32,042 nucleotides of DNA from Candidatus Omnitrophota bacterium. Its GTDB lineage: Bacteria > Omnitrophota > Gorgyraeia > Aquiviventales > Aquiviventaceae. Positions 8,140 through 9,369 of this stretch are shown here, one piece after another. Location: NCBI GenBank assembly GCA_016192545.1, contig JACPTX010000041.1, forward strand, positions 1-32,042. The letters run 5' to 3'. Position numbers and translations under genes: made by a program. Positions within the stretch are counted from its first letter, which is position 1. The number at the start of each line of letters is the position of its first letter. A model generated the notes under the pieces. That model was not told where the DNA came from, did no database searches, and saw nothing but the letters and a program-made list of their open reading frames with translations.

Positions 8140-8165
8140 TTGAAGCCCTGACGGAAGTTGTGTAC
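8140..8165. repeat. Left copy of 26-bp imperfect direct repeat flanking fic
   Basis: TTGAAGC-cctga-CGGAAGTTGTGTAC; right copy at 9344-9369 is TTGAAGC-atacg-CGGAAGTTGTGTAC. Confidence 0.85.
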
Positions 8166-8168
8166 CCC

Positions 8169-8197
8169 TTGCGCCTGAAGCGATTCCAGGGTATAAT
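8169..8197 (+). promoter_or_regulatory. Sigma70-type promoter for fic
   Basis: TTGCGC (8169-8174), 17-nt spacer, TATAAT (8192-8197), 35 nt before the fic ATG. Confidence 0.75.
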
Positions 8198-8219
8198 TGC
8201 TTCATAATATGAAGCGATT
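8176..8219 (+). promoter_or_regulatory. Operator-like cluster of three half-sites overlapping the fic promoter
   Basis: TGAAGCGATT (8176-8185), inverted AATTGCTTCA (8195-8204), TGAAGCGATT (8210-8219); AATTGCTTCAT-AAT-ATGAAGCGATT is a dyad with one mismatch. Confidence 0.6.
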
Positions 8220-8231
8220 AATGAGGCGCTG

Positions 8232-9347
8232 ATGACCTATCTCTGGCAGCTGAAGCAGTGGCCCGCGTGGCGCTGGAACAGCGAAGCCCTCCTGCCGTTG
8301 ATCAGCCGGGCGCGTCTTTCGCAAGGCAAGCTCCTCACCAAGGTTGCGAGCCTGGGGTTCAAGCTCAGCCGCGAGGCGCAAGCGGATATCTTGACCGAAG
8401 AGGCCGTCACCACCTCGGCGATTGAAGGGGAGCGACTCAGCCGCGACTCGGTGCGATCATCCGTCGCACGGCATTTGGGGCTTCCGGCCGCAGGACTTTC
8501 GCCTGCGAACCGGTCCGTGGATGGGTTGGTGGAGGTGCTGTTGGATGCCACGCAGCACTACGAAGCCCCGCTGACGGCCGCCCGGCTCAAGCGCTGGCAG
8601 GCCGCGCTGTTTCCAACCGGGCATTCCGGGCTGCGCAAGATCCGCACCGGACAGTGGCGGGGTCCTGAGCAGGCGATGCAGGTGGTCTCCGGCGCGGTGG
8701 GGCGGGAGCGGGTGCATTATGAAGCGCCGCCTGGCCGACGCGTGGGCCAGGACATGACGCGATTCCTGTCGTGGTGGCGGGCCGGCGCCGCGCGCGAAGA
8801 CGGCCTGCTGCGCTCCGGCCTGGCGCATGTGTACTTCGTGACCATCCATCCTTTTGAGGACGGCAACGGCCGCATTGCTCGCGCCTTGACGGAGATGGCC
8901 CTGGCTCAGGATGAGCACCAACCGATCCGCTGCTATAGCCTGTCGTCTCAGATCATGAAAGAGCGCAACGCCTATTACCGCGTGCTGGAGGCGTGCCAGA
9001 AGGGCGATGGCGATGTGACGGCTTGGCTGCAGTGGTACCTCGGGTGTTACACCCGGGCGGTCGAGCGCACCGAGCGGCTCATCGCCGATGTGCTGGCCAA
9101 GGCCGCGTTTTGGCAGCGGCATAGCCAGGCCGACCTGAACGCCCGTCAGCGGAAAGTGCTCAACCGGCTGCTGGATGCCGGGAAAGGCGGCTTTCAAGGA
9201 GGGTTGACAACAAGGAAATATGTGGCGCTGGCCAAGGTGAGCCGAGCCACGGCGTTTCGGGAAATCTCAGAGTTGCTGGAGAAGGGACTGCTTACCCAGC
9301 ATCCGGCCAGGGGCCGGAGCGTCAGTTATGAGGTGAAGTGGGGTTGA
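8232..9347 (+). CDS. Fic family protein with DUF4172-type N-terminus and C-terminal winged-helix-like segment
   Basis: Fic motif HPFEDGNGRIAR; N-terminal inhibitory-type motif TSAIEG; C-terminal TTRKYVALAKVSRATAFREISELLEKGLLTQHPARGRSVSYEV resembles an HTH. Confidence 0.93.
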   Translation: MTYLWQLKQWPAWRWNSEALLPLISRARLSQGKLLTKVASLGFKLSREAQADILTEEAVTTSAIEGERLSRDSVRSSVARHLGLPAAGLSPANRSVDGLVEVLLDATQHYEAPLTAARLKRWQAALFPTGHSGLRKIRTGQWRGPEQAMQVVSGAVGRERVHYEAPPGRRVGQDMTRFLSWWRAGAAREDGLLRSGLAHVYFVTIHPFEDGNGRIARALTEMALAQDEHQPIRCYSLSSQIMKERNAYYRVLEACQKGDGDVTAWLQWYLGCYTRAVERTERLIADVLAKAAFWQRHSQADLNARQRKVLNRLLDAGKGGFQGGLTTRKYVALAKVSRATAFREISELLEKGLLTQHPARGRSVSYEVKWG

Positions 9348-9369
9348 AGCATACGCGGAAGTTGTGTAC
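9344..9369. repeat. Right copy of 26-bp imperfect direct repeat flanking fic
   Basis: TTGAAGC-atacg-CGGAAGTTGTGTAC, overlaps the fic stop codon. Confidence 0.85.

Follow-up and report, generated by a model that had tools for sequence, protein, structure and literature searches.

How is a fic gene controlled when it stands as a single gene behind a promoter overlapped by repeated half-sites? This question was raised by a 32,042-nt contig of Candidatus Omnitrophota bacterium (JACPTX010000041.1), hereafter the window, i.e. the whole stretch of DNA analysed, which belongs to a draft genome of 1.35 Mb. In the window, fic (8232..9347, + strand) has era on one side and yqeY on the other, and its best matches sit in Omnitrophota metagenome assemblies. 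A first-pass annotation had noticed the half-sites and had proposed that Fic could repress its own promoter. With a probability of roughly 0.87, comparative sequence data indicate that this site is an autoregulatory fic operator, whose half-sites would be gripped by a Fic dimer through its C-terminal winged helices, leading to repression of its own gene.

The fic promoter comprises a -35 hexamer TTGCGC (8169..8174) and a -10 hexamer TATAAT (8192..8197), both on the + strand and separated by a spacer of 17 nt. Half-site A, TGAAGCGATT (8176..8185, + strand), lies inside this spacer. Half-site B, AATTGCTTCA (8195..8204, - strand), reads TGAAGCAATT on the minus strand, with one mismatch, and is overlapped by the -10 hexamer, while half-site C, again TGAAGCGATT (8210..8219, + strand), is located downstream of the expected transcription start. 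A dyad with 13-nt arms (8194-8206/8208-8220), 12 of the 13 positions being complementary and 1 nt lying between them, covers the latter two. The promoter, the three half-sites and the dyad described in the first-pass annotation were thus exact to the base. The 10-mer taken alone was not significant, with four window matches (at most one mismatch) for 1.5 expected, a number equalled by 7 of 100 shuffles. The A(+)B(-)C(+) triple was found once in the window, at the fic promoter, and twice in 30 Markov resamples of the window (about 0.07 expected per window). Two other genomic matches to TGAAGCRATT, one in C13 and one across the opening codons of a Fur-like gene, were dismissed since they had no partner half-sites. 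A Fur-family-like gene (L005; G000 contig C49, near 9034-9100) carried a TTGAGACTGAGTCTCAA dyad upstream, and TGAAGCGATT occurred there within the first codons.

Conservation of this arrangement was evaluated on 190 non-redundant homologues (32-100% identity) from about ten phyla, the source groups being Omnitrophota, Nitrospirae, Acidobacteriota, Desulfobacterota, Chlamydiota, Proteobacteria, Verrucomicrobiota, Planctomycetota, Bacteroidota, Cyanobacteria and others. The pattern TGNNNNGAWT(+)-9-(-)-5-(+) was present ahead of fic in 178 of them; the gaps were exactly 9 and 5 in 148 promoters and off by one or two bases in the others. When promoters were aligned on half-site A, TTG was found at -7 to -5 and TATAAT, the consensus at that offset, at +16 to +21, with a 17-nt spacer; among the 148 aligned promoters, TTG was the majority base at each position at the -35 offset. 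Because promoter and half-sites keep fixed offsets, operator and promoter can be regarded as one unit. None of 380 shuffled controls reached the triple cut-off; of 950 control windows taken from these loci themselves, just 2 did so, both barely. According to identity to the window protein, the triple was detected in 26/27 homologues at 60% or more, 59/62 at 50-60%, 88/93 at 42-50% and 5/8 below 42%. A held-out set of 79 further loci, collected afterwards, gave a triple in 54 of the 55 loci with at least 42% identity. Being conserved across homologous fic promoters and rare in controls, the half-site triple is, on this comparative basis, a real and functional operator.

Several variations on this layout were observed. 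Many homologous promoters (L066, L050, L023, L069 and others) had a second triple upstream of the main one at an offset of 51-57 nt, typically 55, bringing the number of half-sites up to six, the window having one triple. A distant Fic lineage with an SKATATRDL helix (L191, L193-L197, L315, L324, L346, L347) had TGAGCCGAWT half-sites. In its held-out members L315, L324, L346 and L347 the A-B pair alone was clear, so that the third half-site may be dispensable. In a close relative (L006), an insertion of about 60 nt with a GC-rich hairpin-like stretch separated half-site C from the fic start codon.

The 371-residue product, assigned from Pfam, a PDB match and an AlphaFold2 model, is a class II Fic AMP (adenosine monophosphate)-transferase. 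It consists of a DUF4172 domain (residues 3-84; PF13776, E 1e-29), followed by a Fic domain (residues 114-224; PF02661). The catalytic motif HPFEDGNGR (206-214) fits HPFx[D/E]GN[G/K]R and was invariant in an alignment of 37 sequences; the N-terminal motif TSAIEG (61-66), in which I64 and E65 were invariant in the same alignment, fits [S/T]xxxE[G/N]. The assignment to class II is based on both motifs being intact, and the inhibitory-type motif recognized by the first-pass annotation was therefore present as described. A C-terminal helix-turn-helix (HTH) had also been suspected, pending structure prediction. In the AlphaFold2 model, which had a mean predicted local distance difference test (pLDDT) score of 91, the C-terminus folds into helices 304-316, 327-334 and 338-350 and strands 354-356 and 366-368, so that a winged helix is confidently predicted there. 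Its codons (residues 304-368) extend over 9141..9335 and those of the putative recognition helix alpha3 (residues 338-350), as placed by the model and by the covariation described below, over 9243..9281, both on the + strand. The closest solved structure was CbFic2 (PDB 8CIL, 48% identity); by its domains, both motifs and the predicted winged helix, the window Fic is a DUF4172 class II Fic of the CbFic2 type.

The primary sequence of the half-sites provided an indication of the protein that reads them. The middle NNNN was common to the half-sites of one promoter and differed by lineage, the words being AAGC (48), CGGA/T/C (about 90), AGCC (8), AGGC (5), CGTC, CAAC and others. Such constancy within promoters and variability between lineages points to a reader protein with a lineage-specific sequence preference. 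Operator bases were compared with every column of the Fic alignment, and mutual information placed residue 339 first for base 3 and residue 338 first for base 6. In a tree restricted to residues 1-295, the HTH being left out, base 6 and residue 338 changed together on 17 of 29 branches (p 2e-10; next-best column 1e-4), and the top columns for bases 5, 4 and 3 were 338, 344 and 339, respectively. The 27 promoter positions taken as controls favoured scattered columns, the lowest p being about 2e-6. Residue 338 was also the top column for base 6 when only the CGG group was considered (p 3e-8).

A simple correspondence emerged from these comparisons. At position 338, R was associated with C6 (55/55), K with C6 (12/13), Q with A6 (44/50) and N with T6 (6/6), T338 also being paired with T6; at position 339, D was associated with C3 (108/109) and A with A3 (59/60). 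These pairings, in which C6 (G on the opposite strand) goes with R338 or K338, are chemically sensible in terms of general protein-DNA recognition. Applied as a fixed code to held-out loci, the correspondence was right for base 6 in 36 of 43 cases (18 for the majority base) and for base 3 in 58 of 59 (52 for the majority base). Held-out L307, a switch inside the CGG lineage, displayed A339 together with A3, as the code predicts. The window conforms as well, with R338 and A339 in Fic and C6 and A3 in the half-sites, and in one genome hosting two fic paralogues the word is CAAC where residue 338 is K and CGGT where it is T. The start of the third helix of a winged helix is where DNA-reading side chains are expected. 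Since the covarying residues 338 and 339 begin this third helix in the predicted fold, Fic itself is most likely the reader of the operator half-sites, and from these comparisons we infer that it physically binds them.

The distribution of the operator within genomes was restricted. A search of 17 genomes for the two-half-site dyad returned essentially fic promoters only, the A-B dyad occurring in matched genomes only at fic, apart from one exception with two mismatches; the operator is thus dedicated to fic. There was essentially no regulon beyond fic by this dyad search, although single half-sites may occur elsewhere. An apparent second operator copy in a relative (G157) was rejected, as it corresponded to one locus split over two contigs. 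No partner gene or antitoxin recurred beside fic, every flanking family being limited to at most 4 of 183 loci. In the window no antitoxin gene is adjacent to fic, which does not qualify as a type II toxin-antitoxin module.

These data bear on the first rival explanation, according to which another regulator encoded elsewhere binds the half-sites and the winged helix of Fic binds DNA non-specifically, localizing the enzyme. Random DNA was indeed bound by CbFic2 at nanomolar affinity, and the possibility of non-specific binding was considered in that study (PMC10628234). Against this, the operator accompanies fic across phyla while no neighbour does so recurrently, its bases covary with residues of the recognition helix, which also predict them in held-out loci, and the two paralogues hosted by one genome have different half-sites. 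We therefore consider a different regulator improbable.

A number of points nevertheless weigh against Fic as the reader of a conserved operator. In twelve of the 190 promoters no triple reached the cut-off, and one was often missing from homologues with less than 42% identity. The half-site model and its cut-off were fixed on the first set, i.e. on sequences already seen, the held-out set not being used for this purpose. In a small non-CGG subset, other columns ranked above the recognition helix. The link between base 3 and residue 339 largely reflects one deep split, with few independent switches (e.g. L307, L268, L180), and residue 344 was dropped as a reader of base 4 because it predicted 51 of 60 held-out cases, fewer than the majority base (55/60). 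More generally, all the evidence is comparative, and related sequences are not independent, a bias for which tree-based counts correct partly.

Under the autoregulatory reading, the winged helices of a Fic dimer would bind TGAAGCGATT half-sites threaded through the -35/-10 spacer, the -10 hexamer and the start region. Owing to this overlap, bound Fic would exclude RNA polymerase and fic would be repressed. The dimer may be held by one pair of half-sites, A-B or B-C, the remaining one making binding cooperative. The sign of regulation is, we infer, repression. Alternatively, Fic could activate its own promoter from the operator, or either activate or repress it according to its AMP state. Some regulators bound in the spacer act by distorting the promoter, and half-site A lies there; the sites, however, also cover the -10 hexamer and the start region, the usual location for steric repression, and CccR, a Fic protein acting on its own promoter, is a repressor (PMC9755527). 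Activation or a dual sign appears as improbable as the involvement of another regulator. The first-pass proposal of Fic as a binder of its own promoter is supported by operator conservation and base-residue covariation, binding and repression being predictions; a coupling to self-inhibition of AMPylation, also raised there, would be a further possibility.

The fic gene also bears marks of mobility. Homologues were found on 360 plasmid records, and homology between the window and the fic upstream region of its nearest relative begins sharply at -35. Moreover, fic is flanked by a 26-nt imperfect direct repeat (8140-8165 and 9344-9369, 14 nt exact) that matches a promoter, TTGAAGC-17-TACACT, which is conserved ahead of yqeY in relatives, including those where no fic was found. 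As the repeat flanking fic is yqeY promoter sequence, fic appears to have been inserted with a duplication of this promoter. Together, the sharp border at -35, the promoter duplication and the plasmid homologues suggest that the travelling unit seems to be the promoter-operator plus the fic gene. It is scarcely credible that the dyad is an RNA feature or a mobile-element end (a hairpin or a recombination site) and no protein operator: the inverted repeat could fold into a hairpin and fic is horizontally mobile, but half-site A, which lies upstream of the -10 hexamer and hence is not transcribed from the fic promoter, is equally conserved, base changes follow recognition-helix residues and not hairpin pairing, and no matching copy occurs at the fic 3' end.

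The biochemistry of CbFic2 suggests that the DNA-bound Fic dimer may be a deAMPylating or AMPylation-restrained form, in which case enzyme level and enzyme state would be coupled. A bolder extension, possible though doubtful, is that the operator doubles as an allosteric switch: once bound to it, the dimer would be locked in its deAMPylating form, and Fic would in this way sense the occupancy of its own promoter and gate its own AMPylation. The module would then consist of one gene and 50 bp of DNA, moving between phyla and re-tuning its word via residues 338 and 339 to stay independent of resident paralogues.

In the open-licence literature, no specific DNA target was found reported for the DUF4172 Fic family, the nearest cases being CccR and a study of CbFic2 with random DNA. 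The conserved operator and its simple residue-base code represent a specific candidate target for a family spread over many phyla and hundreds of plasmids. CccR, a class II Fic of Yersinia pseudotuberculosis, represses its own promoter through a C-terminal HTH; this negative autoregulation was demonstrated by lacZ fusion, electrophoretic mobility shift assay, footprint and isothermal titration calorimetry (PMC9755527). CccR is a dimeric Fic enzyme that, like the window protein, combines an N-terminal inhibitory motif with a C-terminal HTH, and inverted repeats lie near the -35/-10 region of its gene; the window fic likewise has, at its own promoter, repeats that would be read by a C-terminal HTH. 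However, CccR is a more distant class II Fic, its operator is AGATAATCAT-N26-ATGATAATCT, with two AGATAATCAT repeats 26 bp apart, where the window has three TGAAGCGATT half-sites separated by 9 and 5 bp, and it is a type VI effector, whereas there is no hint of secretion for the window Fic. CbFic2 from Coxiella burnetii has a crystallographic, DNA-binding C-terminal winged HTH, and DNA of at least 20 bp induces its dimerization and favours deAMPylation over AMPylation (PMC10628234). It shares the DUF4172-Fic-winged helix order with the window protein, the 48% identity extending over the whole length. In contrast, CbFic2, the only biochemically studied DUF4172 Fic found, was assayed with random DNA only, no operator being reported, and DNA-induced dimerization and the AMPylase/deAMPylase switch are known from CbFic2 only. 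Given that DNA is reported to switch CbFic2 activity, AMPylation assays of DUF4172 Fic enzymes should include operator DNA. SoFic from Shewanella oneidensis (3EQX, 3ZCN) is also a class II Fic with a winged helix, but it is about 20% identical and no DNA target has been shown for it (per PMC10628234). Finally, in Fic/Doc type II toxin-antitoxin operons the gene of a Fic-fold enzyme is likewise autoregulated via a DNA-binding domain, whereas in the window Fic the enzyme, the inhibitory motif and the predicted DNA-binding domain are united in one chain.
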